DNA of 64,000 nt from Bradyrhizobium erythrophlei. GTDB taxonomy: Bacteria; Pseudomonadota; Alphaproteobacteria; Rhizobiales; Xanthobacteraceae. The first letter of the stretch is position 1. Each line of letters starts with the position of its first letter. The DNA lies in assembly GCF_900129505.1 (NCBI RefSeq), contig NZ_LT670818.1, positions 2,418,001 through 2,482,000 of the forward strand, written 5' to 3'. The translations under genes and the position numbers were made by a program. Positions 229 through 23,519 of this stretch are shown piece by piece. The notes under the pieces are model-generated. The model was not told where the DNA came from. It ran no database searches and saw nothing but the letters and a program-made list of their open reading frames with translations.

Positions 229-409
229 CCCGTGAAACTACGGGCACCGCGGTTTAACGCCGAAAGCACTTCTACTATCCGTAGAACTACCGATGTTTTT
301 GTCACAAGCCGTGGAATCACGGCGCTTTTCGTATGTATCGGCGGGATTTTCTGCGGGCGTCGCGACAGCCCGGCATTCCAGATTCTCCAAAAAGTCCGTA
401 TTCTTACTG
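229..409. promoter_or_regulatory. Cluster of four GTA/GTG-N4-TAC/CAC dyads upstream of the LuxR-type gene
   Basis: The 348-base gap between the edge gene and the LuxR-type gene has no convincing gene. It holds four inverted repeats of one architecture. CCCGTGAAACTACGGG is at 229-244. ATCCGTAGAACTACCGAT is at 277-294. GCCGTGGAATCACGGC, with perfect 6-bp arms, is at 308-323. A weaker CCGTATTCTTACTG is at 396-409. Centre-to-centre spacings are about 49, 30 and 87 bases. The arms and the 4-bp spacer match single dyads upstream of cheY, cheA, a receptor gene and others in this window. They are read here as operators for a dimeric regulator, possibly a LuxR/FixJ-type protein; that assignment is inference. 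Confidence 0.6.
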
Positions 410-456
410 AGTAGAAAATTAACCCTCGAAGAGCACAGGCTCGTTAAACAATTCGT

Positions 457-1071
457 ATGGGACATCAAGAAAACCGAATCGCTGATTCGCCTTTCTCGAC
501 GTGGATCGAAAGCAGCGCGCCTCCCGACGACGATCTGGAAACGGTCCGGTTGTCCGCCGCACGCACGCGGGCGATGGATGAGGCAGGCGCCGCGATCGCC
601 CGGCAGCTCAACGGACCAATGACTGCGCTCTTGCTCTACATGGGCGAGATCAAGCAGCACAGCCAGCAGCTTTCGCAAGCTGCGGGTAATCGGGTCTACC
701 TGCAGCAGGTGGTCGAGAACGCCCTGCAGCAGACCGAGCGGGTCTGCGCCATGATCAAGCAGATGGCCGACACGCACGAGGAACCGGCCGCCGAGTCCGG
801 CCGCAAGACCGGGTGGGAGAAGCGAGCCGGCCGCGGCAAGGAAGGTGCCGGCGTGATGTTCGCATCAAGCGCCGGCCAGAAGCCGCTGACCAAGCGCGAG
901 CGCGAAGTGCTGAGCCTGATCAGCGAGGGCTATTCCAACAAGCAGGGTGCACTGCGGATGAATATCAGTCCGCGGACCTTCGAAAGCCACCGCGCCGAAG
1001 CGATGCGAAAGCTCGGCGCGCGAAACACCGCCGACCTCGTCCGCCTGGCACTGCTGCACCCGGCCGGCTAG
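457..1071 (+). CDS. LuxR-family (GerE-type HTH) transcriptional regulator with a kinase-like N-terminus
   Basis: 204 residues. The C-terminal ~65 residues are a LuxR/GerE helix-turn-helix: PLTKREREVLSLISEGYSNK, then a recognition segment around NISPRTFESHRAEAMRKLG and LGARNTADLVRLAL. This HTH closely resembles that of the FixJ-type regulator at 16086. Residues ~40-110 contain IARQLNGPMTALLLYMGEI and a long helix, reminiscent of a degenerate histidine-kinase dimerisation region, but no phospho-acceptor His motif or receiver domain is seen. How it senses a signal is therefore unknown. The start at 457 has a poor ribosome-binding site; ATG 574 is an alternative. The upstream dyad cluster suggests autoregulation. 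Confidence 0.75.
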   Translation: MGHQENRIADSPFSTWIESSAPPDDDLETVRLSAARTRAMDEAGAAIARQLNGPMTALLLYMGEIKQHSQQLSQAAGNRVYLQQVVENALQQTERVCAMIKQMADTHEEPAAESGRKTGWEKRAGRGKEGAGVMFASSAGQKPLTKREREVLSLISEGYSNKQGALRMNISPRTFESHRAEAMRKLGARNTADLVRLALLHPAG

Positions 1072-1079
1072 GCGGCATC

Positions 1080-1100
1080 GGCTCTGATTGAGTCAGAGCC
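1080..1100 (+). terminator. Hairpin after the LuxR-type gene
   Basis: Perfect 8-bp arms GGCTCTGA / TCAGAGCC with a 5-base loop, starting 9 bases after the LuxR-type stop codon. There is no T-run, so this is a candidate terminator or 3'-end stabiliser rather than a clear intrinsic terminator. Confidence 0.4.
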
Positions 1101-1324
1101 AGAGCGCCAAATCCCTTTCTGCCGCGTTCTTCACGCGCAGCGGTATCCGAGCCGCATCGGGCGCGGGCGCGCATGTTTCGTCCGAAAACGCGACGGCGTT
1201 GCCATCGCGCGGCGCGGCTGATGCGTGCGCCAGGCCGGATCGCTTGCCTGTCCTGAATTTTCTGGATTGCGATTTGTTGTCGGCGATGAGGCCGACGCGG
1301 GGCGCGCGCAGAGCGCGCGCCGGC

Positions 1325-1570
1325 TCAGTAGAGATCTTCCACGAATGAATGCACGCGGGGCGCGGTGGAGCGCGAGACGTCCGGTTTGGGCGGGCTCGGG
1401 ATGATCGTAACGGTCCAGCGTTGCGGGATGCTTGTCTTGCTCTCGAGCACGGCGCGAACGTGGCCGGTGACCGTCGACCCGCCCGACCTTACCGTCGCGA
1501 TTCTGCCGTTGAATTGCGCAATGCGGAGGCGCCGGACTTCTTTCTGGTCAGCCGTTTCAAACGTAAACAT
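1325..1570 (-). CDS. Small unknown protein, 81 residues
   Basis: 81 residues beginning MFTFETADQKEVRRLRIAQF. I chose ATG 1570 because GAGGGAGG lies 5-6 bases upstream. The frame is open further upstream to 1654, but that extension runs over the dyad at 1634-1649. The N-terminal ~55 residues look like a small beta-rich fold (RIATVRSGGSTVTGHVRAVLE, then RWTVTIIP). The tail is Pro/Ser-rich and ends HSFVEDLY. No signal peptide or membrane segment is present. It converges with the LuxR-type gene. No family is recognised. Its strong ribosome-binding site and a perfect dyad 64 bases upstream argue that it is real and regulated with the neighbouring signalling genes. Confidence 0.6.
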   Translation of the reverse strand: MFTFETADQKEVRRLRIAQFNGRIATVRSGGSTVTGHVRAVLESKTSIPQRWTVTIIPSPPKPDVSRSTAPRVHSFVEDLY

Positions 1571-1633
1571 GAAGCCTCCCTCCCGCTCGCGCGATTGTCG
1601 CGGTTTGTTATTAGCCATGTATGAAAATGCGAC

Positions 1634-1649
1634 GCCGTAGAAGTACGGC
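1634..1649. promoter_or_regulatory. CCGTA-N4-TACGG dyad upstream of the small gene
   Basis: GCCGTAGAAGTACGGC: perfect 6-bp arms around a 4-base spacer, ending 64 bases upstream of the ATG at 1570. It has the same architecture as the sites at 229, 2364, 9806, 15991 and 23504. Confidence 0.55.
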
Positions 1650-1795
1650 CGCAATCTTGCCGCGCAGGCTCGGTGTTGCAGGTTCTTCAGCGCTGCAGCT
1701 CCAGTGCCGCGGCCGATGAATAGGCCCTGTCCAGTTCGTCAAGCAGCGCGCGATACTCGCGAGCGCGAGCCGTTGGCGGCTTGTATCTGCGATTG

Positions 1796-2188
1796 TTAGG
1801 CGGCGGAGCCCGGGAACACCGCTTCCATTTTGGTTTTCAGGGTCGCGGCATTGAACGGCTTGACGATGTAGTTGCTGACACCGGCCTTCTTCGCGGCGAT
1901 GACGTTTTCGGTCTTCGATTCCGCCGTTATCATGATGAAGGGGGTTTGCGAGAGCTCGGGGCTGGCGCGGACTTCCCTGAGCAAATCGTAGCCGGTCATC
2001 GGCTCCATGTTCCAGTCGGAGATCACCAGGCCGTACTTCTTGCCCTGCATCTTGGCGAGTGCGGCCGAACCGTCGCTGGCATCGTCAACGTTCTCGAACC
2101 CGATCTGCTTGAGCAGATTGCGGATGATCCGGATCATGGTGTTGTAGTCATCGACCACCAGGATCGGCATCGACAAATCAAAGGCCAT
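1796..2188 (-). CDS. Single-domain response regulator, CheY-like
   Basis: 130 residues, one receiver domain. Phospho-acceptor Asp58 is in LVISDWNMEPMTG; acidic-pocket DD is at 13-14 (ILVVDDYNTM); the conserved Thr/Ser is in FIMITAES; the Lys is in NYIVKPF. The sequence style (SDWNMEPMTGYDLLREVR) is that of alphaproteobacterial CheY proteins that bind the flagellar switch or act as phosphate sinks. The start is ATG 2188, with GGAG about 8 bases upstream; an upstream in-frame start at 2224 has no such support. It lies apart from the cheA operon at 10054, so a role with the nearby flagellin locus is an inference. A perfect dyad lies 176 bases upstream. Confidence 0.88.
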   Translation of the reverse strand: MAFDLSMPILVVDDYNTMIRIIRNLLKQIGFENVDDASDGSAALAKMQGKKYGLVISDWNMEPMTGYDLLREVRASPELSQTPFIMITAESKTENVIAAKKAGVSNYIVKPFNAATLKTKMEAVFPGSAA

Positions 2189-2363
2189 GACTCTACTCCG
2201 CGCGGTTCGCAACTTGCCTGGCACGGGCGGGAGATCGCGGCATACGAAGAATTTTCGACGCTTTTTTCGAACTCGCGCTCGTCAGTATCGTGACAACTAG
2301 CAGCGGTCATTGAAGAGTGCGTTAATTCTGAACGGAATAAATCCACCGACAGCGCCGCGAGAG

Positions 2364-2379
2364 CCCGTAATTATACGGG
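2364..2379. promoter_or_regulatory. CCCGTA-N4-TACGGG dyad between crp-like gene and cheY-like gene
   Basis: CCCGTAATTATACGGG: perfect 6-bp arms, 4-base A/T spacer, 176 bases upstream of the CheY-like start and 44 bases downstream of the Crp/Fnr stop. Confidence 0.55.
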
Positions 2380-2422
2380 TGCGGCTGGCCAGAACGATCT
2401 GCCGACCGGAGGTGGCGATGGC

Positions 2423-3139
2423 TCACGACAGGCAACGAGGCCGAAGCAGCCTGTTATACTGCGCCTTTACCGTCGCGTAGCATTCGCAAGAGGTTTTGCC
2501 GAGACCTTCGAGGTTGAGGATCTCGATGTGCCCCCGGCTGTAATGGATGAAATTGGCCTGCTGCAGCGTGTTGGCCACCAGCGAAACGCTGTTGCGCCGT
2601 GCGCCGATCATCTGCGCCATCGCTTCCTGGGTAAGGATGAGCTTGGCGCCGCCGGACAGATCGTGGGCCTGCAACAGACATCGCGCCAGTCGGGATTCCA
2701 CCGTGTGCGAGGCGTTGCAGCCGGCGGTCTGCTGGATCTGCGCATAGACCGCCAGCCCGTGGCGAACCAGCGCCGCCCGAAACGTTGGGCTTTGATCGGC
2801 TGCGGCGCGGAGGCGATCGAGGTCGAGCGTCGAGGCGACGCCTGGCACCATCACCACCGCGCTGTTCAGCGCAGTCGCATCGCCGAGAGCGGAAAATGAG
2901 CCGAACACGCTGTCGCGGCCGATCATGGCGATCTGAACGTGTTCTCCCTTTGCAAGCTTCACGACGAGGGAGATCACGCCCTTGTGCGGCAGGAACGCGC
3001 GCTTGAGCGATTCACCCACTTCGACCAGCACGGTTTCCTGAACCAACTCCACGGTTCGCAGATGCGGACGGATCAATTCGAAATCATCAGCGTTGAGCGC
3101 CGACAAAAATCCGTTAGGTGAACGAGGAGCCGAATCCAA
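2423..3139 (-). CDS. Crp/Fnr-family transcriptional regulator
   Basis: 238 residues: an N-terminal cyclic-nucleotide-binding fold (~15-135) and a C-terminal winged HTH (~150-225). The start chosen is TTG 3139, because AAGGAGG ends five bases before it; the open frame extends to 3412 but has no good signal there. The sensor lacks the R-S/T cAMP pocket motif and has no Fnr-type Cys cluster, so the ligand is unknown. The HTH (LTQEAMAQMIGARRNSVSLV) lacks the RExxxR recognition helix of E. coli CRP, so it should read a different operator. A decayed paralogous C-terminus lies directly upstream at 3348-3660. Confidence 0.8.
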   Translation of the reverse strand: MDSAPRSPNGFLSALNADDFELIRPHLRTVELVQETVLVEVGESLKRAFLPHKGVISLVVKLAKGEHVQIAMIGRDSVFGSFSALGDATALNSAVVMVPGVASTLDLDRLRAAADQSPTFRAALVRHGLAVYAQIQQTAGCNASHTVESRLARCLLQAHDLSGGAKLILTQEAMAQMIGARRNSVSLVANTLQQANFIHYSRGHIEILNLEGLGKTSCECYATVKAQYNRLLRPRCLS

Positions 3140-3186
3140 AAGAGCCTCCTTCCTCACGCGAACATAACCGGTCCGGCGGTCCCTGA

Positions 3187-3209
3187 TACCGTCACGCTTA
3201 TGCACGGTA
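3187..3209. promoter_or_regulatory. Inverted repeat upstream of the Crp/Fnr gene
   Basis: TACCGT, 11 bases, then ACGGTA, 48 bases upstream of the TTG start at 3139. The spacing differs from the 4-base dyads in this window, so it may be an independent operator, perhaps for the Crp/Fnr protein itself. Confidence 0.3.
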
Positions 3210-3347
3210 CTCGACGTAGAGGATGGGCCTTGCACGCAAAGTTGGCAAGAACAAATGGCATATGGGCGCATTTTCCTGCGCCTGTTTCCTGGAACTGCGC
3301 TCACGTCACCGCCCGCCGCGAAGGAATGGGTCGTCGCTGCGGCGCGT

Positions 3348-3930: not shown

Positions 3931-4195
3931 AACAAGCGAATTCCAAGATGAACTCAACGCGTTTGCGCGCTGCTTGAAGCGGCGTTGCCGCGCTTGATCG
4001 CGGCGATTTCATCGATGCGCGCGCAATCGCGTCGATGCGCGGAAGGCGTCGCGCCGATCTCGTGCGCGCTCATTTCTAGGTATTACTACTGACCGCCAAT
4101 TTAACGAACAGGTAGCACCGACAGAACAGGGTGATACGTCGCTGCCTGAAACGTGCGGCGTCGCGTCAACAGTGTTCATCCAGAAGGGTATCCAA

Positions 4196-6454
4196 ATGTC
4201 CAGTATCGTTCTCTCTGCGTCGGTTCGCCAGAACCTGCTCTCGCTCCAGTCGACCGCCGATCTTCTCGCCACCACTCAGAACCGTCTCTCGACGGGCAAG
4301 AAGGTGAACTCGGCTCTCGACAATCCCACCAACTATTTCACGGCGCAGGGTCTCGATAACCGCGCCAGCGACATCAGCAACCTGCTCGATGGCATCGGCA
4401 ACGGCGTGCAGGTTCTGCAGGCCGCCAATACCGGCATCACCTCGCTGCAGTCGCTGGTCGACACCGCGAAGTCGCTCGCCAACCAGGCGCTGCAGACCAC
4501 GGTCGGCTACTCCACCAAGTCCAACGTCTCCACGACGATCGCCGGCGCGACCTCATCCGACCTGCGCGGCACGACGACATACACAAGCGCATCGGCGATC
4601 AGCAACGTCGTTGCCAACGGCACCGCCGGCGGCGCTTCCCCGGTCACGTCAGCGATTACGCTTGGCGGCATTGCGGGATCCCTGGTTGGTACTGCGGGCG
4701 TCGACGGCGCCGGAACTGCGGCCAAGCTGGCTGCTGGCCTCACCCTGCTCGGTGCTCCGAGCGCCACCACCATCGCGGCCAATTCGGCACCATCAGACGG
4801 TGACGTCCTGATCGTCAATGGCAAGACCATCACCTTCCACGCTGGCACTGCTCCGGCCGCGGGCGGAGTTCCCACCGGCTCCGGCGTCAGCGGCAATATC
4901 GTCACCGACGGCAGCGGCAACTCCAGCATTTACCTCGGCACCACGGCTGCGCCCTTGGCAACCGTCGGTGACGTGCTGAAGGCTATCGATCTCGCCAGCG
5001 GCGTCGCCAAGACCGTGAACGTCGCAGGCGCAGCAACCATCACCGGCTCGACCGCAGCGATCTCCGCCGGCGGCGTGCTCACCCTGGCTACCACGACGGG
5101 CGCCGACCTCAGCATCACCGGCAAGGCCGATCTGTTAAAGGGCCTCGCTCTGACCACGTCGGTCGGTTCCGGCAACGTAACCGTAGGCGCAGCGCGTACC
5201 ACCGCTGCGACAACCACCGCCAACCTGATCCAGGACGGCTCGACCCTGAACGTGGATGGCCACACCATCACCTTCTCCAACGCGCACGTGCCGGCGGCGG
5301 CGCAGGTTCCGACCGGTTCGGGCATCCTCAACGCCGTCCAGACCGACGGCAACGGCAACTCGATCGTCTATCTGCAGACCGCGACCATTGCCGACACGCT
5401 GAACGCGATCGATCTGGCTTCCGGTGTGCAGACCGCAACCAACTCGGCCGGCGTTGCGGCATTCTCGACCGCGACGGGCGTTACCCCGTCGTCGGTGAAT
5501 GCGAACGGCACGCTGAAGCTCAGCACCGGTACGGTGACTGATCTCAGCATCAGCGGTGGCACCGGCAATGCGCTGGCCGCCCTTGGTCTCAACGGTCCCA
5601 CCAACAACAGCAGCAGCTTCAACGCTGCCCGTGCTGCCGGAGTCGGCGGCATCAACGGCAAGACCTTGACCTTCTCCTCCTTCAACGCCGGCACGGCGGT
5701 CAATGTCACCTTCGGCGACGGCACCGGCGGTACGGTCAAGACGCTCGACCAGTTGAACGCCCAGTTGCAGGCCAACAACCTGACCGCGACGCTCGACTCG
5801 ACCGGCAAACTGTCGATCTCGGCGAACAACGATTTCGCTTCCTCGACCCTCGGGTCGGTGACAGCGGGCGGCGCGATCGGCGGCACCATCACCAGCGCGC
5901 TGACCTTCTCGACCGCTTCGGCGCCGGTTGCCGATCCCTCGGCCCAGGCCGTCCGCAGCAACCTGGTTACCCAGTACAACAACATCCTGGCCCAGATCAC
6001 CACCACGTCCCAGGATGCTTCGTTCAACGGTGTCAACCTGTTGGGCGGCGATACGCTGAAGCTGACCTTCAACGAGACCGGCAAGTCGACCCTGGGCATC
6101 ACCGGCGTCAACTTCAATGCGGCGGGTCTTGGCCTCGCCAACCTCACCAGCGGCGTCGACTTTATCGACAACGCCGCCACCAACAAGGTCGTCGCGAGCT
6201 TGTCCGCTGCCAGCACGTCGCTGCGGTCGGAAGCTTCGGCTCTCGGTTCGAACCTGTCGATCGTGCAGATCCGCCAGGACTTCTCGAAGAACCTGATCAA
6301 CGTGCTGCAGACCGGCTCGTCCGACCTGACGCTGGCCGACACCAACGCGGAAGCGGCCAACAGCCAGGCGCTGTCGACCCGCCAGTCGATCGCGGTGTCC
6401 GCGCTGTCGCTGGCCAACCAGTCGCAGCAGAGCGTGCTCCAGCTGCTCCGCTGA
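4196..6454 (+). CDS. Large flagellin, first tandem copy
   Basis: 752 residues, about twice the size of many alphaproteobacterial flagellins and similar to the large flagellins reported for Bradyrhizobium thick flagella. Conserved D0/D1 helices lie at ~1-105 (SASVRQNLLSLQSTADLLAT, QNRLSTGKKVNSALDNPTNY) and ~600-752 (end ALSLANQSQQSVLQLLR). The central insert holds two ~120-residue repeats (201-320, 347-468) sharing VNGKTITF/VDGHTITF, PTGSG, DGxGNS, AIDLASGV and DLSI-S/T-G, plus a shorter related unit at 485-555 (INGKTLTF). The ATG at 4196 follows AGAAGGG. A 754-residue paralogue lies at 7136 with flbT between. The product is exported by the flagellar type III system as filament subunit. Confidence 0.93.
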   Translation: MSSIVLSASVRQNLLSLQSTADLLATTQNRLSTGKKVNSALDNPTNYFTAQGLDNRASDISNLLDGIGNGVQVLQAANTGITSLQSLVDTAKSLANQALQTTVGYSTKSNVSTTIAGATSSDLRGTTTYTSASAISNVVANGTAGGASPVTSAITLGGIAGSLVGTAGVDGAGTAAKLAAGLTLLGAPSATTIAANSAPSDGDVLIVNGKTITFHAGTAPAAGGVPTGSGVSGNIVTDGSGNSSIYLGTTAAPLATVGDVLKAIDLASGVAKTVNVAGAATITGSTAAISAGGVLTLATTTGADLSITGKADLLKGLALTTSVGSGNVTVGAARTTAATTTANLIQDGSTLNVDGHTITFSNAHVPAAAQVPTGSGILNAVQTDGNGNSIVYLQTATIADTLNAIDLASGVQTATNSAGVAAFSTATGVTPSSVNANGTLKLSTGTVTDLSISGGTGNALAALGLNGPTNNSSSFNAARAAGVGGINGKTLTFSSFNAGTAVNVTFGDGTGGTVKTLDQLNAQLQANNLTATLDSTGKLSISANNDFASSTLGSVTAGGAIGGTITSALTFSTASAPVADPSAQAVRSNLVTQYNNILAQITTTSQDASFNGVNLLGGDTLKLTFNETGKSTLGITGVNFNAAGLGLANLTSGVDFIDNAATNKVVASLSAASTSLRSEASALGSNLSIVQIRQDFSKNLINVLQTGSSDLTLADTNAEAANSQALSTRQSIAVSALSLANQSQQSVLQLLR

Positions 6455-6476
6455 GTTCGGCTGCAAGACAAACAAC

Positions 6477-6503
6477 GGCGGCGGGGGAAACCCCGCCGCT
6501 TTC
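6477..6503 (+). terminator. Intrinsic terminator of the first flagellin
   Basis: Perfect 9-bp G/C stem (GCGGCGGGG / CCCCGCCGC) closed by a GAAA tetraloop and followed by TTT, starting 24 bases after the stop codon. Confidence 0.8.
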
Positions 6504-6617
6504 GACCTAAGCGTTCCCCGGGTTTTATGGCGCCTCGCCTGCCGCGTATTCACGCAAGCGATGCTCCGAAAATGTCGAGGGTGGTTTTGCCCGCGTACCC
6601 TAGAAAAGGAGACGACG

Positions 6618-7001
6618 ATGCCGCTGCGAGTCGAGCTGAAGCCGTTTGAGCGGATCGTCATTGGCGAAACCGTCATTATCAATTCCGGCACCCGCACCTC
6701 GTTCCTGATCGACGGCGAGGCGCCGATCCTTCGCGAAAAGGACACCGTGACCGCCGAGACCGCCAACACGCCGGTCAAGCGGCTCTATTTCTGCGTCCAG
6801 ATGATGTACCTGAAGAACGACATTCCGAGATATCGGAATGCGTATCTCGGCTTCGTCAAGGAGCTGCGCGAAGCTCTTCCCGGCTCGCGCGATGTGATCG
6901 ACGGCGTCAACGCTCATGTCTCGGGCGGCGCCCTCTACAAGGCCCTCAAGGAACTCCGAAAGCTGATGAAGGTCGAGGAAGGCCTCTTGATGAGCGCCTG
7001 A
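6618..7001 (+). CDS. flbT: Flagellin-expression regulator FlbT
   Basis: 127 residues, the usual FlbT length. The N-terminus MPLRVELKPFERIVIGETVI and the segments LIDGEAPILREKD and RLYFCVQMMYLKND are characteristic. In Caulobacter, FlbT binds the flagellin mRNA leader and limits its translation; related proteins act as repressors or activators in other alphaproteobacteria. The start is ATG 6618, with AAGGAG about 8 bases upstream; the frame opens earlier at 6561 without such a signal. It sits between the two large flagellins, so its likely targets are their near-identical leaders (4178-4195 and 7118-7135). The usual partner FlaF is not in the window. Confidence 0.93.
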   Translation: MPLRVELKPFERIVIGETVIINSGTRTSFLIDGEAPILREKDTVTAETANTPVKRLYFCVQMMYLKNDIPRYRNAYLGFVKELREALPGSRDVIDGVNAHVSGGALYKALKELRKLMKVEEGLLMSA

Positions 7002-7135
7002 CGCCGGCGTTCGGCGTGTGAGCTGCGAACGGCATCCCGCAGCGTCTATCGGTTCAAAGTGAAAGGTATCGCGTAGCGTAAAACCCAACCCAAAAAGTAT
7101 TGCGTACAAACGGTTCAATCCAGAAAGGTACCCGA

Positions 7136-9400: not shown

Positions 9401-9424
9401 GTCGGGCGGCGAGATCAACAATCG

Positions 9425-9805: not shown

Positions 9806-9823
9806 GTCCGTATTAGCACGGAC
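9806..9823. promoter_or_regulatory. GTCCGTA-N4-CACGGAC dyad upstream of cheA
   Basis: GTCCGTATTAGCACGGAC: 7-bp arms with one mismatch around a 4-base spacer, 230 bases upstream of the cheA start. Same architecture as the other CCGTA-N4-TACGG sites. Confidence 0.5.
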
Positions 9824-9841
9824 ATCGAAATTAACGTGAAT

Positions 9842-12935: not shown

Positions 12936-13409
12936 ATGACCAGCAAGACCGACTTGACCGAAGGCGCCGTCGCCGAATACGTCACCGCGATGATCGGAGG
13001 CCAGCTGTTCGGGCTGCCGATCTCCCGCGTCCAGGACGTGTTCATGCCGGAACGGCTGACGCGGGTGCCGCTGTCGCCCGGCGAGATCGCCGGTGTGCTC
13101 AATCTGCGCGGCCGCATCGTCACCGTGGTGGACATGCGCGCCCGGCTCGGACTGCCGAGGGCCGACGACGGCAAGCCGCCGATGGCGGTCGGCGTCGACC
13201 TGCGCGGTGAGTCCTACGGCCTGCTGATCGACCAGATCGGCGAGGTCCTTAGGCTTCCCGACGCGGGCCGCGAGGAAAATCCCGTCAACCTCGATCCCCG
13301 CATGGCCAAGCTCGCCGGCGGCGTGCATCGTCTCGACGGTCAGCTCATGGTCGTCCTCGATGTCGATCGCGTCCTCGAAATCGTGCCGAAAACCGTGCTG
13401 GCAGCCTAG
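12936..13409 (+). CDS. cheW: Chemotaxis coupling protein CheW
   Basis: 157 residues, a single CheW domain of normal length. Typical segments are AMIGGQLFGLPISRVQDVF, GVLNLRGRIVTVVDMRARLG and the terminal LDGQLMVVLDVDRVLEI. It tethers CheA to chemoreceptor tips such as the receptor at 21372. ATG 12936 follows AAGGATCTGAAGC. It lies 74 bases after cheA, separated by the 21-bp tandem repeats, and 43 bases before cheY. The Asn-Leu-Arg-Gly motif of the receptor-binding face is kept. Confidence 0.95.
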   Translation: MTSKTDLTEGAVAEYVTAMIGGQLFGLPISRVQDVFMPERLTRVPLSPGEIAGVLNLRGRIVTVVDMRARLGLPRADDGKPPMAVGVDLRGESYGLLIDQIGEVLRLPDAGREENPVNLDPRMAKLAGGVHRLDGQLMVVLDVDRVLEIVPKTVLAA

Positions 13410-13452
13410 CTTTGAGTTGCGATCGCAACGCCCCATTTGGGAGAAGCCCGAA

Positions 13453-13836
13453 ATGAGAACATGTCTTGTCGTCGATGACTCGACCGTCATCCGGAAAATC
13501 GCGAGGCGAATTCTGGAAGAGATGGATTTCGAGATCACCGAGGCCGAGGACGGCGAGAAGGCGCTGGAAGTCTGCAAGTGCGGACTGCCCGACGCCGTCC
13601 TGCTCGACTGGAACATGCCGGTCATGGATGGCTTCGAGTTCCTGGGCAATCTGCGCCGGCTGCCTGGCGGCGACCAGCCCAAGGTGGTGTTCTGCACTAC
13701 CGAAAACGGGATTGATCATATTGCGCGTGGGCTTGATGCGGGCGCCAACGAATACATCATGAAGCCGTTCGACAAGGACATCGTCGCCGCGAAGTTCCGG
13801 GAAGTCGGATTGATCGAGGTTACGGTGCCGGTCTAG
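13453..13836 (+). CDS. cheY: Chemotaxis response regulator CheY
   Basis: 127 residues, receiver domain only. Phospho-acceptor Asp52 in AVLLDWNMPVMDGFEFL; DD at 8-9 (LVVDDSTVIRKI); Thr in VVFCTTENG; Lys in YIMKPFDKD. ATG 13453 follows GGGAGAAG. Its place between cheW and cheR makes it the likely output of the CheA at 10054, controlling the flagellar motor. A second CheY-like protein is at 1796, and CheA carries its own receiver, so phosphate may be shared among three receivers. Confidence 0.94.
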   Translation: MRTCLVVDDSTVIRKIARRILEEMDFEITEAEDGEKALEVCKCGLPDAVLLDWNMPVMDGFEFLGNLRRLPGGDQPKVVFCTTENGIDHIARGLDAGANEYIMKPFDKDIVAAKFREVGLIEVTVPV

Positions 13837-14067
13837 GCCGGTTCCACGTCTCATAAGCCGTATCAGGTTGCGTCAAGTCATGACTATTGAACCAAACGCG
13901 GGGAAAAATCCTCGTTCCGGTTGCACCCGGAGGGGCGGCTATCCGCGCCGCCGGATGCCTTGCCCGTCATCGGCGCGCACAACCCGGAAAATTGACATTC
14001 GCGTCATGGTGAAATCGCCCAGCGATGTCCGTCCGAAATCATTACATTTCGTTTCGAGAGGCCGCCC

Positions 14068-14949
14068 GTGACCCCGCCCGACTACGAATATCTGCGCAAA
14101 CTCCTGAGAGACCATTCCGGTCTCGATCTGTCTGCCGACAAGCAGTATCTGATCGAAAGCCGGTTGCTGCCGCTGGCGCGCAAGGCCGGCATCGCCGGCA
14201 TCAGCGAACTCGTGCAAAAAATGAAGGATGGGTCCGCCTCGCTCGTCACCCAGGTGGTCGAAGCCATGACCACCAACGAAACCTTCTTCTTCCGCGATAA
14301 GGTTCCGTTCGATCACTTCCGCGATTCGATCATGCCCGAAATCCTGCAGGCTCGCGCCGGCCGCAAGAGCATCCGGATCTGGTGCGCCGCCGGCTCGACG
14401 GGTCAGGAACCCTATTCGCTCGCGATGTGCCTGAAGGAAATGAGCGGGGCGCTGAGCGGCTGGCGGGTCGAAATCATCGCCACCGACCTTTCGCAGGAAG
14501 TGCTCGAGAAGTCCAAGGCGGGCATCTACAGCCAGTTCGAGGTGCAGCGCGGCCTGCCGATCCAGTTGCTGGTCAAATACTTCAAGCAGACCGGCGAGTT
14601 TTGGCAGATCAACGCCGACCTTCGCGCCATGGTGCAGCATCGCCAGCTCAATCTGCTGCACGATTTTTCCCAGCTCGGCACGTTCGACGTGATCTTCTGC
14701 CGCAACGTTCTGATCTATTTCGATCAGGACACCAAGATCAACATCTTCAACCGGCTTGCCAAGCAGATGGAGCCGGACGGATTTCTCGTGCTCGGCGCGG
14801 CCGAGACGGTGGTCGGGCTAACTGACGTCTTCAAGCCGTTTCCCGATCGGCGCGGTCTCTATCGGCCGAGCGGCGTGCGCCCGGCGCCGGCGAAAATGCC
14901 GGCGTCCGGCGGCGCCTCGCCGAAGGTGTCGGCGGTGGCAGGGCTTTGA
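14068..14949 (+). CDS. cheR: Chemoreceptor glutamate methyltransferase CheR
   Basis: 293 residues. N-terminal all-alpha domain ~1-75 (YEYLRKLLRDHSGLDLSADK), then a SAM-dependent methyltransferase domain with TTNETFFFRD, IRIWCAAGSTGQEPYSLAM (SAM loop), IIATDLSQEVL and VIFCRNVLIYFD, all classic CheR motifs. It methylates receptor glutamates for adaptation. The GTG at 14068 is preceded by GAGAGG. A 231-base gap separates it from cheY, where many relatives have cheB; no cheB frame is present. The last ~25 residues are a Pro/Ala/Ser-rich tail. The stop is 3 bases before the PilZ-like gene, so they are probably co-translated. Confidence 0.95.
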   Translation: MTPPDYEYLRKLLRDHSGLDLSADKQYLIESRLLPLARKAGIAGISELVQKMKDGSASLVTQVVEAMTTNETFFFRDKVPFDHFRDSIMPEILQARAGRKSIRIWCAAGSTGQEPYSLAMCLKEMSGALSGWRVEIIATDLSQEVLEKSKAGIYSQFEVQRGLPIQLLVKYFKQTGEFWQINADLRAMVQHRQLNLLHDFSQLGTFDVIFCRNVLIYFDQDTKINIFNRLAKQMEPDGFLVLGAAETVVGLTDVFKPFPDRRGLYRPSGVRPAPAKMPASGGASPKVSAVAGL

Positions 14950-14952
14950 CAA

Positions 14953-15584: not shown

Positions 15585-15929
15585 TCAGGCGCAACCGCTC
15601 CAGCGATCGAGGTGCGGCGCGGTACCGGCCGTCTTAATTCCAGGCTGCGGTGTCCTGGTAGCATGCAGTAGGAGAAAGGCTGCGCCGAGATGGGCTTCGC
15701 AGGTTTTCAATGCCGCACGCGCGCCCGCGTAACGCGGCGTGACGTCATCCAGGACGAATATATTGGTGCCGGTTTCCCAATAGCCGAGGGGAACATCGTC
15801 GGGGACGGCCTGCTCGATCCGTTGCATGCTGGCCTGGACGTGCGCGATCAGCGACATGAGATCGGAACCGATCGCCTCATGGAGGTCCTCATTACGAGCC
15901 GAGGTTCCGCCGCCTGCTGCGTTGTGCAT
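15585..15929 (-). CDS. Small unknown protein, 114 residues
   Basis: 114 residues starting MHNAAGGGTSARNEDLHEAI. The ATG at 15929 is preceded by AAAGGAG at ideal spacing, which strongly supports a real gene. The middle (DLMSLIAHVQASMQRIEQAV) is amphipathic helical, followed by a short hydrophobic patch NIFVLDDVTPRYAGARAAL. There is no signal peptide or membrane span. It is divergent from the FixJ-type regulator at 16086, and a perfect dyad (15991-16006) lies between them. No family is recognised. The regulatory context suggests it belongs to the same signalling regulon. Confidence 0.65.
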   Translation of the reverse strand: MHNAAGGGTSARNEDLHEAIGSDLMSLIAHVQASMQRIEQAVPDDVPLGYWETGTNIFVLDDVTPRYAGARAALKTCEAHLGAAFLLLHATRTPQPGIKTAGTAPHLDRWSGCA

Positions 15930-15990: not shown

Positions 15991-16006
15991 CCCGTACAAA
16001 TACGGG
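15991..16006. promoter_or_regulatory. CCCGTA-N4-TACGGG dyad in a divergent promoter region
   Basis: CCCGTACAAATACGGG: perfect arms, spacer CAAA. It lies 62 bases upstream of the gene at 15929 (minus) and 80 bases upstream of the FixJ-type regulator (plus). The spacer is identical to that of the site at 23504. Confidence 0.6.
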
Positions 16007-16721: not shown

Positions 16722-16810
16722 CGCCGGGCGCCGCCGCCTATCGCCGCGAACGGAACACGCGCACCCGGAGCTACCGCGATCGGCCAGGATCACGCTTGAT
16801 CATCCCGGCC

Positions 16811-19800
16811 TCAAGTGGCGAGCGCCTTGCGGATCATGGCCCCCATATCCGACTTGCGGTACGGCTTGGCGAGCAGCAGCACGCCGGTGTCGAGCCGGCC
16901 GTGATGGATGATCGCATTCTCGGTATAGCCCGAGGTGAACAGCACCTTCAGCTCCGGTTTGCGCCGTTGCAGCTCGTTGGCAAGCTGGCGGCCGTTCATC
17001 GCGCCCGGCATGATGACGTCGGTGAACAACAGATCGAATTGATTGCCGGCCTCGAACACGGTCAGCGCCTCCGCCGCATTGGCCGCATCCAGCGTGACGT
17101 AGCCCAGCGAATGCAGCTGGGTCAGCACGTAATCCCTCACCAGCTTGTCGTCCTCGACGACGAGAATGGTTTCATGTCCGCCTTGTACCGCCAGCGCGTT
17201 GGAGGCCTCGGACGCGACCAGCGCTCCGGTGCCCGGCGGCAGGTACATCTTGATCGTCGTTCCGTGACCCTCCTCGCTGTAGATCTTGATATGCCCCGCC
17301 GATTGCTTGACGAAGCCGTAGACCATGCTCAGTCCGAGGCCGGTGCCCTTGCCAGGTCCCTTCGACGTGAAGAACGGGTTGAAGACCTTGTCGAGGATAC
17401 CGGCGGGAATGCCGGTCCCGGTGTCGCTCACGGCAATCAGGGCGTAGCGGCCGGGCCGGACGTCGCCGTGGATGTTTGCGTAATTTTCGTCGAGGAACGC
17501 CGAGCCGGTCTCCAGGATAAGCTTGCCGCCATTGGGCATGGCGTCGCGGGCATTGAGCGACAGATTGAGGATGGCGGTGGCGAGCTGATTGGGGTCGACG
17601 GTGGCTACGCAGGCTTCGTCTTCGAATACCGATTCGATCTCGATGTGCTCGCCCAGCGTGGGCCGCAGCAGCTTGGCGGTGTCGATGATCAGCGTATTGA
17701 TGTCGACCTCGCGTGGCTGCAGCGGCTGCTTGCGCGCGAACGCCAGCAGATGCTGGGTGAGGTCCGCGCCACGCGCGGCGGCGTCGTCGATCATCCTGGT
17801 GATGGCTGCGAGCTGCGGCTCCTTCTCGACCGCCTCCGCCAGGATTTCGATGGTTCCGGTAATTACCGTCAGGATATTGTTGAAATCATGCGCGATGCCG
17901 CCGGTGAGCTGGCCGAGGGCTTCCATCTTTTCGGACTGCCGGATCCGGTCCTCCGCCGCGATCTTGTCGGTGAGATCACGGTAGAATCCGTTGAACACAA
18001 TGCCCTCGCGGCGGCGTAGCGCGGTGACGCTCACCTCGGCTGTGAATTCCTTGCCGTCGCGCCGCACCGCCCTGATTTCGCGGCGGCCTCCGGAAAGCCA
18101 GTCTTGCCCAGACCGGCGAAAGCGCTCCAAGCCTGCCTTGAGCCTGTCGCGGTCCGCTTCTACGACGATCAGATCGATCAGGCTTTTCCCAAGGGCGTCC
18201 TTGCGCGGCCACCCGAAAATCTTTTCCGCCGCCGAATTCCAGTTCAGGATGCTGCTGCTCTCGTCGGTCTGGACGAAGGCGTCGAGCGCGGTTTCGATGA
18301 TGCCGCGTGCCAGTTGCTCGCTTTCGCGCAAAGTTTCCTGCGCTCGCCGGCTTTCGGTCATGTCGCGGCCGACGAAGAAATACCGCCGGACCGGCTCCGA
18401 CCAGGTGCCCATCCAGGACAGCGTCACGAGCCGTCCGTCCTTGTGGACGTAGCGTGAATCGGTGTTCTGCGCGGGCTGTCCGCGCCGGACCAGCCGCATT
18501 TCCTTGCGGCTGATTTCGAGATCGTCAGGGAGCAGGAACTCGCTGGCGTTGCGGCCGATCATTTCGTCCGGCGCATATCCCAGGATGGTTTCGGCGCTGG
18601 GGCTCACCTGGACCAGCACGCCGCTGGGATCGATCACCAGGATCAGATCCTGCGAAGTATCGAAGATGCGGCGGCGCTCCTCGATCTGCTGGCGCAGCGC
18701 GTGCTGGGTTCGCCTGCTTTCCGTAATGTCGCGGGCGGTTTTCGATGCACCGATGATCGCGCCCGACGGCGTCTTGATCGGGGAAATGCGGAGCGCGACC
18801 TCCACCAGACGGCCGTCCCTGCGCAGGCGCACCGTTTCATATTGCTCGATGGTTTCGCCCCAGTTGACCCGGCGCAGGATGTCATGCACCTCCGCGATCC
18901 GGTCGGGCGGTACGATCAGATCGATGTTCTTGCCGACCGCTTCCGCCGCGGTATATCCGAACAGCCGTTCGGCGGCCGGATTCCAGCCGGTTATCGTGCC
19001 GTCGAGGGACTTGGTGATGACGGCGTCGTTGGAGGACTCGACGGCGGCGCTGAAAAGACGCTCGCGGGCGGCGTAGTGGTCACGCGCGGCCTCGGTCCGG
19101 CGATGTTCCCGGACCTCGCGTTGCAGTGCCTCGGTCTTGGTGTTGGCCTCGCCCAGCACCCGCGCAAACGCCCGTGCCAGCACGCCGGTCTCTCCGCCCG
19201 CATCGACGGGAATGGGCGGCGGGTCGTTCTTGCCGATGCCCTCGACGGCCGCCGTCAATCGACTGATCGGCTGGGTCAGCGAGCTCGCGACGAGCACGGC
19301 CAGCGCGGCCGCGCCCAACACCGCGATCAACCCGACCAGCAGGGAGGTGTTCTGGATCGCCGCCGCCGGCGCCATGAAGACGGCGTTCGGAACGGTTTCG
19401 ATGATCCCGATCCATTCACTGCCGGCAAGAATGGCCGGAGCGAGCGCCGCCGCGCTCGGCCGCCCGGTCTGATCGGGCACGATGTTCACCACACTTTGCA
19501 ATGTCCCGGGTGACGCCGCTAAATAGGGAAAGTCGCTCTGCCAGTTGGTCGACGTGCCCAGCTCCGAGCCGAATTCGCGGCTGGGGTCGGGATGGACGAG
19601 ATAGTCCCCTCGTCCATTGACGACGTAGATCCCCCCGCCCTGCTGCACCGATGACCGGACGCGGTCAAAAGCCGGCCCTAAATCGACGTTGACGATGACG
19701 ACACCGAACGGTTTGCCGTCGGGCGTGAAAATCGGCGTCGCGACGCGTATCGTCGGTCTGTGCGGCGTCTCGATTTCCCCGTAGGACCGCCCCAGATTGA

Positions 19801-20320
19801 GCGGTGATACGTATAATTCGTCCGGGCGCAACTTGATCGAATCCTGGAAATAGGCCCGATCGTCTCTTCGTTGCAACTCCGGCTCTGCAACGATCCGAAG
19901 CGCTCCATTGGACCCGAAGCGGTCGACGCGTACGATCTCGCGCCCGCCGTCATCGAGGCCGATGATGCGAAGCATCGCATAAGCAGGGTTGGCTTGAATT
20001 TCGGCAAAGAGCCGGGCTGCGATCCGTTCCCGCCACGTTTTTTCCGAGATGCCATCAACGGGATCGACGCCACCTGCCAAATGCGCGCGGATCAAGCCGT
20101 TCAACGCGGCCGAGGATCGAAAGCCTGCGATGTCTCCCCGCGCGCCGGCCACGAAGTATTCGAGATCCGCGGCGACGAGCTGCGAATGAGCCTCGATGCG
20201 ATCGAGGACGCGCGGCAGCAGCGCCTGCTCCAGGCTGCGATAGCTCAGCCATCCGACCGCCGATACCGCGATCGCAACCAGCAAGACCATCGCGATGGCT
20301 AGTCGGGTGGCGAGCGTCAT
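16811..20320 (-). CDS. Membrane hybrid histidine kinase, dCache-HAMP-PAS3-HisKA-ATPase-REC
   Basis: 1169 residues. TM1 ~8-28, periplasmic dCache-like sensor ~30-325, TM2 ~327-350, HAMP-like ~350-400. Three PAS domains at ~420-530, 545-665 and 665-785. HisKA with phospho-His in QLTGGIAHDFNNILTVI (~806). ATPase ~915-1030 (NLSLNARDAMPNGG, GTGIPAGILDKVF, GKGTGLGLSMVYG). Receiver ~1045-1165, Asp ~1102 in LLFTDVIMPG. The dCache domain indicates a small extracellular ligand. It starts 69 bases after the single-domain response regulator at 20390 ends, so the two are likely co-transcribed. A decayed copy of this receiver type is at 3661. Confidence 0.92.
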   Translation of the reverse strand: MTLATRLAIAMVLLVAIAVSAVGWLSYRSLEQALLPRVLDRIEAHSQLVAADLEYFVAGARGDIAGFRSSAALNGLIRAHLAGGVDPVDGISEKTWRERIAARLFAEIQANPAYAMLRIIGLDDGGREIVRVDRFGSNGALRIVAEPELQRRDDRAYFQDSIKLRPDELYVSPLNLGRSYGEIETPHRPTIRVATPIFTPDGKPFGVVIVNVDLGPAFDRVRSSVQQGGGIYVVNGRGDYLVHPDPSREFGSELGTSTNWQSDFPYLAASPGTLQSVVNIVPDQTGRPSAAALAPAILAGSEWIGIIETVPNAVFMAPAAAIQNTSLLVGLIAVLGAAALAVLVASSLTQPISRLTAAVEGIGKNDPPPIPVDAGGETGVLARAFARVLGEANTKTEALQREVREHRRTEAARDHYAARERLFSAAVESSNDAVITKSLDGTITGWNPAAERLFGYTAAEAVGKNIDLIVPPDRIAEVHDILRRVNWGETIEQYETVRLRRDGRLVEVALRISPIKTPSGAIIGASKTARDITESRRTQHALRQQIEERRRIFDTSQDLILVIDPSGVLVQVSPSAETILGYAPDEMIGRNASEFLLPDDLEISRKEMRLVRRGQPAQNTDSRYVHKDGRLVTLSWMGTWSEPVRRYFFVGRDMTESRRAQETLRESEQLARGIIETALDAFVQTDESSSILNWNSAAEKIFGWPRKDALGKSLIDLIVVEADRDRLKAGLERFRRSGQDWLSGGRREIRAVRRDGKEFTAEVSVTALRRREGIVFNGFYRDLTDKIAAEDRIRQSEKMEALGQLTGGIAHDFNNILTVITGTIEILAEAVEKEPQLAAITRMIDDAAARGADLTQHLLAFARKQPLQPREVDINTLIIDTAKLLRPTLGEHIEIESVFEDEACVATVDPNQLATAILNLSLNARDAMPNGGKLILETGSAFLDENYANIHGDVRPGRYALIAVSDTGTGIPAGILDKVFNPFFTSKGPGKGTGLGLSMVYGFVKQSAGHIKIYSEEGHGTTIKMYLPPGTGALVASEASNALAVQGGHETILVVEDDKLVRDYVLTQLHSLGYVTLDAANAAEALTVFEAGNQFDLLFTDVIMPGAMNGRQLANELQRRKPELKVLFTSGYTENAIIHHGRLDTGVLLLAKPYRKSDMGAMIRKALAT

Positions 20321-20389
20321 CTGTACTCTCGCGTCGCCTGGTGATCCTTTGGCGCATAGCCGGGCAGGATAGACGACGCTGTGTTGGCA

Positions 20390-20824: not shown

Positions 20825-21342
20825 GAGCGAATCTTTCGCGGTGCATGAAATATGTCAATGTTGAGTTGTGAATCCGTTGCCTGCCACGCGCAAGCCATTC
20901 TTCGGCGACGCGCGCGCCATATTGTTGAAAAAAAGCGACGCATCGCGCTGCTGCTATTCCCGATACAGTGCAGACGACGCCGGACGTGGCTTCGCAACGG
21001 ATGATTCGCGTCGCTTCAGCCAATGATGGAACCCGCGCCGGTGATTTCATACCGCATCCGGTATTTGCACGGGTTTCTGTTTCACTCCCGATTAAACCTC
21101 GGGGATTCTCCCGGAGTTGACGGGCCTTTCTTCACGCAGCATGGCCTGCGCATTTGTCTGAAGGCGGAAACTTCGTTCGCCGATACGGCGGCGCATGGCA
21201 GCGGGGATCCGAAGGCGGCGGCGCATCGGGGCTATGAAGGTGGGCAGGTCGACAAGGCGGCTGTGATCTGGAAGCGGCCCTCGTCAACGGCGAGGCTTAC
21301 AGGATGATGATCGGCGAACGGCGCTTTGCCGTTGCATAGGCT
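20825..21342. other. Intergenic region, no gene recognised
   Basis: About 520 bases between the response regulator start and the receptor hairpin. Frames here (for example plus 21023-21307) lack a ribosome-binding site and a recognisable family. One imperfect dyad CCGGTA-TTTG-CACGGG is at 21058-21073. Confidence 0.4.
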
Positions 21343-21360
21343 CGGCTCGATAACGAGCCG
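21343..21360 (-). terminator. Hairpin after the chemoreceptor gene
   Basis: Perfect 7-bp arms CGGCTCG / CGAGCCG with an ATAA loop, 12 bases downstream of the receptor stop. No T-run. Confidence 0.4.
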
Positions 21361-21371
21361 GGCCTCGTTGA

Positions 21372-23375
21372 TCAGGCCGCACGCACGGTGTTGAGAAACT
21401 TGCCGACCTCGAGCTTGAGGCGGTTGCTGTCGCCGGACAACGACTGCGCCGCCGCCAGAACCTGCGACGAGGCGGATCCGGTCTCGCCGGCGCCGCGCTG
21501 CACGTCGACGATGTGGGACGAGACCTGCTGGGTACCTTGCGCCGCCTGCTGCACGTTGCGGGAAATTTCCTGCGTCGCCGCGCCCTGCTCTTCCACCGCC
21601 GCCGCGATGGTCGAGGAGATTTCCGACAGTCTTTCGATGGTGCCGCTGATCTCCTTGATCGCGCCGACCGACTCGTGGGTCGCCGCCTGGATGCCCGAGA
21701 TCTGCTGGCCGATCTCGCCGGTCGCCTTGGCGGTCTGCTCGGCCAGCGCCTTCACCTCGGATGCCACCACCGCGAAGCCACGTCCGGCCTCACCGGCTCG
21801 CGCGGCCTCGATCGTGGCGTTCAACGCCAGCAGGTTAGTCTGGCCCGCGATGGTGTTGATCAGTTCGACGACGTCGCCGATGCGCGCGGCGGCCTTCGAC
21901 AATTCGCTGACGCGGTCGTTGGTCTTGCGCGCCTGATCGACGGCCTCGCCCGCCATCCGGGCAGATTCCTGCACCTGGCGGCTGATCTCGTTGACGGACG
22001 ACGCCATTTCTTCGGTAGCCGAGGCCACCGACTGCACGTTGGTGGAGGCTTCTTCCGAAGCGGCGGCAACCATGGTGGTGAGCTCCTGCGCCCGCGCCGC
22101 GGTCGAGGTCAGCGTGCCGGCGGAGGCTTCCAGTTCGGTCGAGGCCGAGGATACGGTCTCGACGATCTCGCCAACGGCGGCTTCGAAGCCATCGGCGAGC
22201 TTGATCATGTCCGCCTTGCGCTGCTTGGCGGCGATCTGGTCCTGTGTGGCCTTGGCCTCGGCTTCCTCGCGGGCCTTCTCCTCAGCCCTGACTTTGAAGG
22301 TCTCGACCGCCTGCGCCATGTCGCCGATCTCGTCCTTGCGATCGAGACCCGGGAGCACAACGCCGAAATTGCCGCCCGCGAGTTCTTTCATGCCGGAGGT
22401 CAGTCCCGACAGCGGCTTGATGATGCCGCGCGCGATCAGGAACGCGATCAAGAGGCCAATCACGACGGCTGCGCCGGCCACCACTTCCTGCATGGTGATG
22501 GTGCCGCTGATGAGACCTTCGGTATCTGCGGTCGTCTTGGCGAAAGCCCTCCCGATCGATTCCCTCACCCCGTCGAGTTTTCCAACTGCGTCGACGGTCA
22601 GGGGCGTGATGGCCTTGTAGTAAATGTCATCGCCCGCCACCAGATTGGGCCCGGTCTTGTTGAAGGCCTCGGCGTATTTGGCAACACCGGTCTTGACGTT
22701 CGCCAGCAGCGCCGCGAGATTCGGGGGCAGGTCGGCTTTCTCCAGAACCGCGATCTGCGCCTGGGCCTTTTCGGTGTTGGCCTTGAAAGTCGCGAGCCCC
22801 TTGGCGTCACGGGTCGCCAGCATCCGCCAGTTCGCGACGCGAACCAGAAGTACCTTGGCTTCAAGGAAGGCTGCGCCCGGGGCAGAATCGGTTTTTGCTA
22901 TGGCATCGACGAATTTCTGGACGTCCTCCGCCATCTTGTCGCCGTCGGTGAACAGGGACGCCTGACCGGCAACCACCTGCTTGACGGCCTCGCCGAGCGC
23001 GAGGCGCTTAGCCTTCAGTTCCTCGATATCCTTGCCGATCTCTTTGTAGGTCGCACGCCGTTCTTCGGACCGGGTCGTCTTGTCGGCTTCCACCAGAAGA
23101 TCGCCCGCCGTCTTCAACCGCGTTTCGGCTTCGGTGTAGGATTTCTCGTCGTGATCGAATGCGTAGCGGAGGATCGCGCGCCGAATCGCCTGGAGGTTCG
23201 CGGCGATTTCGCCCACCCGGATCGTGTTCTCGGACTGCAGCGTCATCGCCGCGACCTGGGTGCGGAGTTCTCCCAGTTGCCATACCGCGAAGCCGGCAAG
23301 GCCCACGCAGAACAGCAGCAGTGCAGCGAATCCGCCATAGAGCCGGCCGCTGATTCGAAGATTCAGAAATGACAT
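21372..23375 (-). CDS. Methyl-accepting chemotaxis protein
   Basis: 667 residues. TM1 ~12-34, a long all-helical periplasmic sensor ~35-297, TM2 ~300-322, HAMP ~320-375, and a methyl-accepting cytoplasmic domain ~410-660 with the conserved hairpin tip around [20 protein letters not shown] and [16 protein letters not shown]. The helical sensor looks like a four-helix or HBM-type ligand domain; the ligand is unknown. There is no C-terminal NWETF-type pentapeptide, so CheR would need to act without that tether. ATG 23375 follows GAGGA at about 9 bases. A dyad (23504-23519) lies 129 bases upstream. Confidence 0.93.
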
Positions 23376-23503
23376 TGAATCCGTCCTCGCAAATGCAGCA
23401 ATTTGGAAATGCGAGGGGAAGCTGCTCCCCCGGCGAAATGGCGCATTTGCGCGGCCACTGCCAATGAATAGCAGCTCGAAGATATGACACCCTTAATATA
23501 CCC

Positions 23504-23519
23504 CTCGTACAAATACGGG
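23504..23519. promoter_or_regulatory. CTCGTA-N4-TACGGG dyad upstream of the chemoreceptor
   Basis: CTCGTACAAATACGGG: one arm mismatch, spacer CAAA identical to the site at 15991. It is 129 bases upstream of the receptor start on the minus strand and 271 bases upstream of the dehydratase start on the plus strand. The rest of the 23376-23789 gap (about 410 bases) has no recognisable gene. Confidence 0.55.

Follow-up and report, generated by a model that had tools for sequence, protein, structure and literature searches.

The window analyzed here is a stretch of 64,000 nucleotides, bases 2,418,001-2,482,000 of the single-contig 9.18-Mb genome of Bradyrhizobium erythrophlei. A palindrome, CCGTA-N4-TACGG, is repeated in the window upstream of several genes, including cheA and a chemoreceptor gene. 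Two of the genes encode proteins with a GerE-type helix-turn-helix (HTH) domain. The first, P0001 (457..1071, forward strand), appears to be a FixL-like helical hairpin without the phosphoacceptor His followed by a GerE/FixJ-type HTH. The second, P0002 (16086..16721, forward strand), is a FixJ-type response regulator. The palindrome is probably the operator of a conserved Bradyrhizobium taxis and motility regulon that is read by these two sister HTH proteins, with P0002 as the older reader and P0001 as a fusion. Genes were called with a hexamer-based caller, and gene starts and the division into coding and intergenic DNA are approximate.

Three exact copies of the palindrome were found in the window (1635..1648, 2365..2378, and 15992..16005), while the mean of 100 shuffles was 0.00. 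Eight copies are present when one mismatch is allowed (starting at 230, 279, 396, 1635, 2365, 9808, 15992, and 23505), and the shuffled sequences gave a mean of 0.71 and 3 at most. With two mismatches there are 21 copies where 15.3 are expected, a count reached by 5 of the 100 shuffles, so copies of this kind are indistinguishable from noise by pattern alone. The copies at 309 and 21059 each have two mismatches. The first-pass annotation, made from the letters of the window, had pointed out these sites and proposed that they define a motility and signaling regulon. All of its sites were recovered, with coordinates that were one base low, or two for cheA. Its weak site near 21058 is the copy at 21059..21072 (CGGTATTTGCACGG), which scores 13.4 with a weight matrix built from the sites of relatives only (59 distinct 14-mers). 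It had seen no site beyond 24 kb, and no copy with at most one mismatch was found in the window beyond 23518.

Three one-mismatch copies and one two-mismatch copy are clustered before the gene for P0001 (230-409). Copy 1, in the regulator's own promoter (230..243, CCGTGAAACTACGG), and copy 2 (279..292, CCGTAGAACTACCG) score 17.9 and 17.3, and copy 3 (309..322, CCGTGGAATCACGG) is the weaker one, with two mismatches and a score of 14.4. Copy 4 (396..409, CCGTATTCTTACTG) is promoter-proximal. It lies 61 bp before the ATG, at a position conserved in relatives, and is followed 9 bp later by a TTAAC box (419..423, forward strand) that is a CtrA-type half-site by sequence. Exact copies stand before two putative target genes on the reverse strand. 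The site at 1635..1648 precedes a gene for an 81-aa protein with no Pfam hit (1325..1570), and that at 2365..2378 is upstream of the gene for a CheY-like single-domain response regulator (1796..2188). The start of the latter, 2188, was read from the sequence, and its Response_reg domain was tested on 1796-2170. The cheA site (9808..9821, CCGTATTAGCACGG) has 60 related copies and is likewise followed 9 bp later by a TTAAC box (9831..9835, forward strand). It precedes the cheA copy that is linked to P0001 (10054..12861, forward strand), which encodes Hpt, H-kinase_dim, HATPase_c, CheW, and Response_reg domains. Domain scans place cheW, a receiver gene, and cheR downstream of it (12936..14949, forward strand), probably in the same operon. 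The third exact copy, at 15992..16005, lies between P0002 and a divergent open reading frame (ORF; 15585..15929, reverse strand) whose only match, to a DUF, is below the cut-off. The last site has one mismatch (23505..23518, TCGTACAAATACGG, score 12.95) and precedes a putative target, the gene for a chemoreceptor identified by domain scan (methyl-accepting chemotaxis protein; 21372..23375, reverse strand), with a TTAA 8 bp after the site (23493..23496, reverse strand).

The palindrome is conserved in related loci. Of 165 loci that encode a relative of P0001, the best 80 were used (1.28 Mb in all), 76 from Bradyrhizobium and 4 from bins classified only to a higher rank. There are 163 exact copies in their intergenic DNA and 3 in coding DNA; the loci are orthologous, so this count measures conservation and not independent events. 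As much as 26% of this DNA was called intergenic, which is high for a bacterium, so missed genes must be included. Together, 13 control palindromes (eight scrambled forms, four other spacers, and the everted form) gave 3 intergenic and 35 coding copies, 24 of the latter from one pattern. No intergenic copies were found with a spacer of N3, N5, or N6, and one was found with N2.

The positions of the sites are also conserved. A site with at most one mismatch is present in 75 of the 80 regulator promoters (260 bp); the copy in each of the remaining five has two mismatches and, in four of these promoters, lies at -62. Sites were found before the small gene in 68 of 68 loci (160 bp), before the linked cheA in 41 of 42 (300 bp, with a slightly looser pattern), and before P0002 in 8 of 8 (250 bp), counting loci where each gene was recognized by a sequence pattern. 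Of the 80 loci, 18 have an exact copy at the corresponding place before the CheY-like gene. A common operator is found at the promoters of the putative target genes and is rare in coding DNA, as in one regulon. When 69 distinct regulator promoters were aligned on the promoter-proximal site, the palindrome and the TTAAC box were conserved and the DNA between and around them was variable. The palindrome columns of this alignment are mostly fixed by the search itself and the TTAAC columns, at 1.6-2.0 bits each, are not. In related loci L033, L044, L045, L048, and L052, a flagellin gene has the site before it, unlike the flagellin genes of the window.

The rest of the genome was sampled in 100 evenly spaced 20-kb tiles (2 Mb), one of which overlaps the window. 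At a score of at least 13, the 484 kb between genes hold 9 sites and the 1516 kb within genes hold 5, a 5.6-fold higher density between genes. Twenty chemoreceptor genes exceeded the family cut-off, and one further match below it was excluded. Seven of the 20 have a site scoring at least 12 within 400 bp upstream, compared with 13 of 1642 sampled genes (p = 8e-10). The threshold of 12 was used since one of the counted chemoreceptor genes scores 12.95. The tiles still hold at least three chemoreceptor genes, so the contrast is understated and the test is conservative. Two flagellin genes near 8.458 Mb have sites scoring 20.9 and 18.4. One of the best sites, scoring 22.1, is about 55 bp upstream of a gene for a GGDEF diguanylate cyclase (L183 10320-11552; 4563320 in the genome). 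Its presence there suggests a possible link to cyclic di-GMP. The proposal of a motility and signaling regulon is supported by the intergenic bias in the related loci, the density in the sampled genome, and the chemoreceptor genes. Measured against the refuting condition of the first-pass annotation, equal frequency in coding DNA or before unrelated genes, these results do not refute it. The set of sites that was first drawn up ends near 24 kb correctly as far as the window is concerned, but the regulon appears to reach genes for chemoreceptors, flagellins, and GGDEF proteins in other parts of the 9.18-Mb genome.

Other exact palindromes were noted in the genome. According to their translations, the genes beside the sites at 8375314, 8859564, 6939767, and 566802 are recA, a SCO1-like gene, a short DUF1127-like ORF, and a transporter-like gene, respectively. 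These four sites may be chance occurrences or further targets. Another exact copy, at 246274 (L116 12275), lies 71 bp before a 199-aa ORF and about 700 bp upstream of a chemoreceptor gene that has a weaker site of its own. The exact motif with an AT-centered spacer (central NWWN) is present 5-9 times in five genomes of the same genus, all with P0001, and at most 4 times in 114 others. This filter separates the genus only moderately, since 43 of the 119 genomes have at least one such copy.

The second conserved element is the TTAA box. Among promoters with a matching palindrome, the box follows at 9 bp in 69 of 70 for the regulator and in 59 of 60 for cheA, and the remaining cheA promoter has it at 10 bp. 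The box is usually TTAAC and reads TTAACCAT in several regulator promoters of relatives. The CtrA half-site is described as TTAA with the variant TTAACCAT, near -35 when CtrA activates, in the available text of one study (PMC6180460). The box seen here, including TTAACCAT, fits both the half-site and its variant. The likeness to the CtrA regulon concerns the half-site of a full TTAA-N7-TTAA. Only the regulator and cheA promoters have what is, by sequence, a CtrA-type half-site at a fixed place. In the B. erythrophlei genome, TTAA lies at 7-8 bp in some chemoreceptor promoters. A TTAA is also present beside the P0002 site in this genome, on the divergent side; it was not kept as TTAA in the promoters of the same genus that were looked at, and it was set aside.

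The two cheA copies provide a comparison within one genome. The B. erythrophlei genome possesses two cheA genes that are 99% identical. The operator is present at the copy linked to the regulator and not at the other. The promoter of the second copy (694339-697143; L141) is without the palindrome and has a TTAACCA box. Promoters were grouped by linkage to P0001, since grouping by presence of the motif would be circular. Thirteen further genomes have two cheA copies, and both promoters were examined in ten of these. Exactly one of the two copies has the site in 11 of 11 genomes, including B. erythrophlei. In the ten further genomes, scores are 13.3 to 17.9 for the site and no higher than 6.3 at the other copy, and the copy carrying the site also has the TTAAC box 9 bp after it. 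Linkage was looked at in one of them, G035, where the copy with the site is about 3.4 kb from the regulator; elsewhere, as stated above, nearly all linked copies have the site. Two cheA genes with proteins more than 99% identical are also described in Bradyrhizobium diazoefficiens, in the available text of a 2026 study (PMC13390405). Gene swaps between the two che promoters in strain USDA110 showed there that the promoter or downstream partners, and not the CheA protein sequence, set the hierarchy (PMC13390405). The factors behind the differential regulation of cheA are stated in that text as not known (PMC13390405).

Of the two candidate readers, P0002 has the more familiar architecture. Matches to PF00072 and PF00196 exceed the cut-off, giving an N-terminal receiver and a C-terminal GerE HTH, as in NarL/FixJ response regulators. 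Relatives at E <= 1e-60 are present in 44 of the 119 family genomes and 18 of 47 genera. From the 44, 30 loci were cut out and the 160 bp before the gene were searched for YCGTA-N4-TACGR with at most one mismatch. The palindrome is present in 5 of 5 genomes of the same genus. The relatives that are 75-79% identical and come from three other genera also have it (7 of 7), and there it invariably precedes the start by 57-63 bp. Twenty-three permuted half-sites together matched 1, 2, and 6 promoters in the same-genus group, this near group, and the group at 61-67% identity. It is likely, judging from these promoters, that P0002 is the older reader of the operator. The recognition helix has Asp in Bradyrhizobium P0002 (SPRTIED), Ser in P0001 (SPRTFES), Tyr in six near relatives of P0002 (SPRTIEY), and Val in a distant one. 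The operators of the near relatives (L242-L255) show a change in the outer base pair, from C-G toward T-A.

P0001 has a less usual composition. Only GerE and Sigma70_r4_2 were matched in Pfam, and no receiver, PAS, or ATPase domain was found. Both HTH genes named by the first-pass annotation proved real, one with GerE and no receiver found and the other with both. The HTH domains of P0001 and P0002 are 52% identical, and the next best match in the genome to the HTH of P0001 is 43%. No autoinducer-binding domain of quorum-sensing LuxR was found in either protein by Pfam. The N-terminal half of P0001 was modeled as a two-helix hairpin (helices 24-69 and 78-106) with a mean predicted local distance difference test score (pLDDT) of 72.5 and a predicted template modeling score (pTM) of 0.34. 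At the place of the phospho-accepting His, Arg is present in 80 of 80 relatives of P0001; when one relative was aligned with FixL, this Arg fell opposite the active His. P0001 looks like a degenerate FixL-like kinase hairpin fused to a FixJ-type HTH.

P0001 relatives at E <= 1e-15 number 3079. The 120 that are listed carry only GerE/Sigma70_r4 domains and have either no name or generic ones, such as CsgD family, NarL/FixJ family, or response regulator transcription factor. At E <= 1e-20, P0001 is found in 9 of 297 genomes of the order, all of the same genus as the window. In the family set, matches extending into the P0001 N-terminus come from only two other genomes; they are 39-41% identical and have Gln instead of His at the key position. 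At L271 and L272 (genomes G343 and G339), beyond the genus, distant hairpin-HTH proteins were noted in which Gln takes the place of the kinase His. The hairpin-HTH gene at L271 adjoins a gene resembling a PAS histidine kinase. P0001 is likely a second reader of the operator, one found only in this genus.

P0001 as the sole reader was dropped, since P0002 promoters keep the palindrome in three other genera. The opposite proposal is that P0002 is the only reader of the operator and that P0001 recognizes something different, or serves only to compete or pair with P0002. The P0002 relatives that keep the palindrome in those genera would fit this, as their genomes have no P0001 match at E 1e-20 or a weak one. 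So would genome G398, in which the P0001 match is limited to the HTH and 7 of 19 chemoreceptor promoters have a site. There, 23 permuted half-sites gave 0-6 promoters (GATC 6, the rest at most 2), and one further hit lies in coding DNA. However, the promoter of P0001 itself has up to four copies and keeps its site across the related loci, and the AT-centered exact motif is most numerous in the five genomes of the genus that bear P0001. We consider that P0002 alone is an unlikely explanation.

Another regulator could also read the motif, with the two HTH proteins as mere neighbors or targets. This could be an unlinked factor or, for example, the Crp-like regulator that a domain scan places at 2423-3271, between the CheY-like gene and the flagellin region. 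Being linked or autoregulated does not amount to binding, and a P0002 query matches the genome at 89 places with E of at most 1e-5, in many cases through the receiver alone. On the other hand, the HTH common to P0001 and P0002 stands out in the genome, and the promoter of P0002 has retained the palindrome in three other genera, where the neighboring genes differ in the loci examined. Such a third regulator is rather less probable than a single reader, P0002.

A number of results weigh against the proposal that two sister proteins read one operator of taxis and motility genes. Genome-wide, the exact pattern occurs 15 times and its reversed control 22 times, so no enrichment was found. Since the control is commoner, the genome-wide search suggested in the first-pass annotation is uninformative with exact counts, and enrichment is visible only with intergenic position, conservation, and the weight matrix. 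The motif is not as frequent in coding DNA as between genes, but 7 of the 15 exact sites are by genes without an evident motility link, as judged from translations. No site was found at 13 of the 20 chemoreceptor genes, and the window's own two flagellin genes score 8.8 and -5.3 and have no strong operator. The genome-wide counts would suit chance or a functionless repetitive element. Against this stand the fixed positions across 80 loci with diverged promoters and the second conserved box alongside. Chance is refuted for the conserved sites, although it may still hold for some unconserved ones, and as an account of the whole it has a negligible likelihood.

The reach of the operator is also uneven. 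The palindrome was found in only 1 of 18 promoters of P0002 relatives at 61-67% identity, so self-control by P0002 appears older than the genus but not universal. Genome G343 has P0002, and 1 of 20 chemoreceptor promoters has a site, with 0-3 for the permuted half-sites. The chemoreceptors taken were 20 of 28 matches in G398, one without a gene start being dropped, and 20 of 31 in G343. Ancestral control of chemoreceptors is only suggested by these two genomes together. In the B. erythrophlei genome, 6 of 20 sites have TTAA at +7 to +10 on the gene side, and none of the small-gene and CheY promoters of relatives has TTAA at that place. Joint action with CtrA is therefore proposed for some promoters only. 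The same promoters bear on whether the palindrome and TTAA could be a core promoter, the -35 and -10 of an alternative sigma factor. The left half-site is about 17 bp before a possible -10, and the spacing is nearly invariant in the regulator and cheA promoters. Yet both half-sites are conserved, the N4 spacing is strict, and the small-gene and CheY promoters keep the palindrome without the TTAA. A core promoter is very improbable.

The hairpin of P0001 is subject to doubt as well. HisKA is the best Pfam match in 4 of 4 N-terminal pieces, with E from 0.001 to 0.086, which is below the cut-off. In a PDB profile search, FixJ was the top match to the HTH of P0001, and the rest of the protein hit FixL constructs first, though weakly (E 0.025). 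When the model was searched with Foldseek, no kinase hairpin was found among the 50 of 457 matches listed, all of which are GerE-type HTH proteins.

The two-reader proposal could work as follows. P0002, the older reader, would control its own gene. In Bradyrhizobium, a P0002-like HTH would later have been joined directly to a dead kinase hairpin, giving P0001. P0001 would bind the same operators as a dimer, without being phosphorylated, and would regulate itself through as many as four copies. In the regulator and cheA promoters, the bound dimer would be placed immediately before the CtrA-type half-site, at the fixed 9-bp spacing, and would act jointly with CtrA. Activation is assumed, being what a CtrA-type box and several upstream sites would suit, although repression may occur instead. 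The putative targets are the che operon linked to P0001, a CheY, about one third of the chemoreceptors, two flagellins, probably the diguanylate cyclase, and the regulators' own genes.

Other genes at the locus were identified as well. A gene for a hybrid histidine kinase (16811..20320, reverse strand) lies near P0002, with a PF21623 sensor, PAS, HisKA, HATPase_c, and a receiver over the cut-off and HAMP and dCache_1 below it. Only its proximity makes it a candidate partner of P0002. The two flagellin genes of the window, at 4172-6454, where a domain scan showed DUF1522 stretches, and at 7100-9400, code for proteins of about 760 aa. An FlbT gene (6618-7001) lies between them.

Known systems resemble parts of this arrangement. 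In the FixL/FixJ system, FixJ likewise consists of a receiver and GerE, as P0002 does. The HTH of P0001 is nearest to FixJ and its N-terminus to FixL constructs, but P0001 differs in being without a receiver, PAS, or ATPase domain and in having Arg for His, and the putative targets here are taxis genes. AcfR of Azorhizobium caulinodans is a FixJ-family receiver-HTH regulator whose deletion lowers swimming (PMC7945327). It is like P0002 in architecture, and no operator was seen in the available text (PMC7945327). LafR/Rem and VisNR are also rhizobial regulators of motility genes. A review, in its available text, describes LafR as controlling the lateral and not the polar flagellum of B. diazoefficiens, where visNR is absent (PMC8429497). 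The available text of an iModulon study gives a Flagella module of 46 genes, with no operator seen for it there (PMC10454721), and in that of another study no flagellar or chemotaxis gene is reported to have a motility-linked mutation (PMC8585493). The first-pass annotation knew of no named regulon with this operator, and no paper naming the operator or regulon was found in open-licence full texts, a collection in which subscription papers are mostly absent.

The finding has possible consequences for the biology of the genus. P0001 and P0002 are candidate regulators for chemoreceptor genes in a genus where the available text of the review describes only the lateral-flagellum regulator LafR (PMC8429497). 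If P0001 is as it looks, a kinase dimerization module has been reused as the dimerizer for a DNA-binding domain. The operator at one of two cheA promoters turns the question of their differential regulation into a single-site mutation experiment. It is possible, though doubtful, that P0001 represents a new type of one-component regulator, a dead FixL-type hairpin with a FixJ-type HTH that shares the operators of P0002, is wired to CtrA by the 9-bp spacing, and is a dedicated switch for one of two che kinase operons, many chemoreceptors, and flagellins. In this reading the hairpin, though dead as a kinase, may also bind a receiver, that of P0002 or of a CheY, and P0001 would then sense the phosphorylation state of another protein. 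If the reading is true, the P0001 switch would explain why one che operon dominates chemotaxis.

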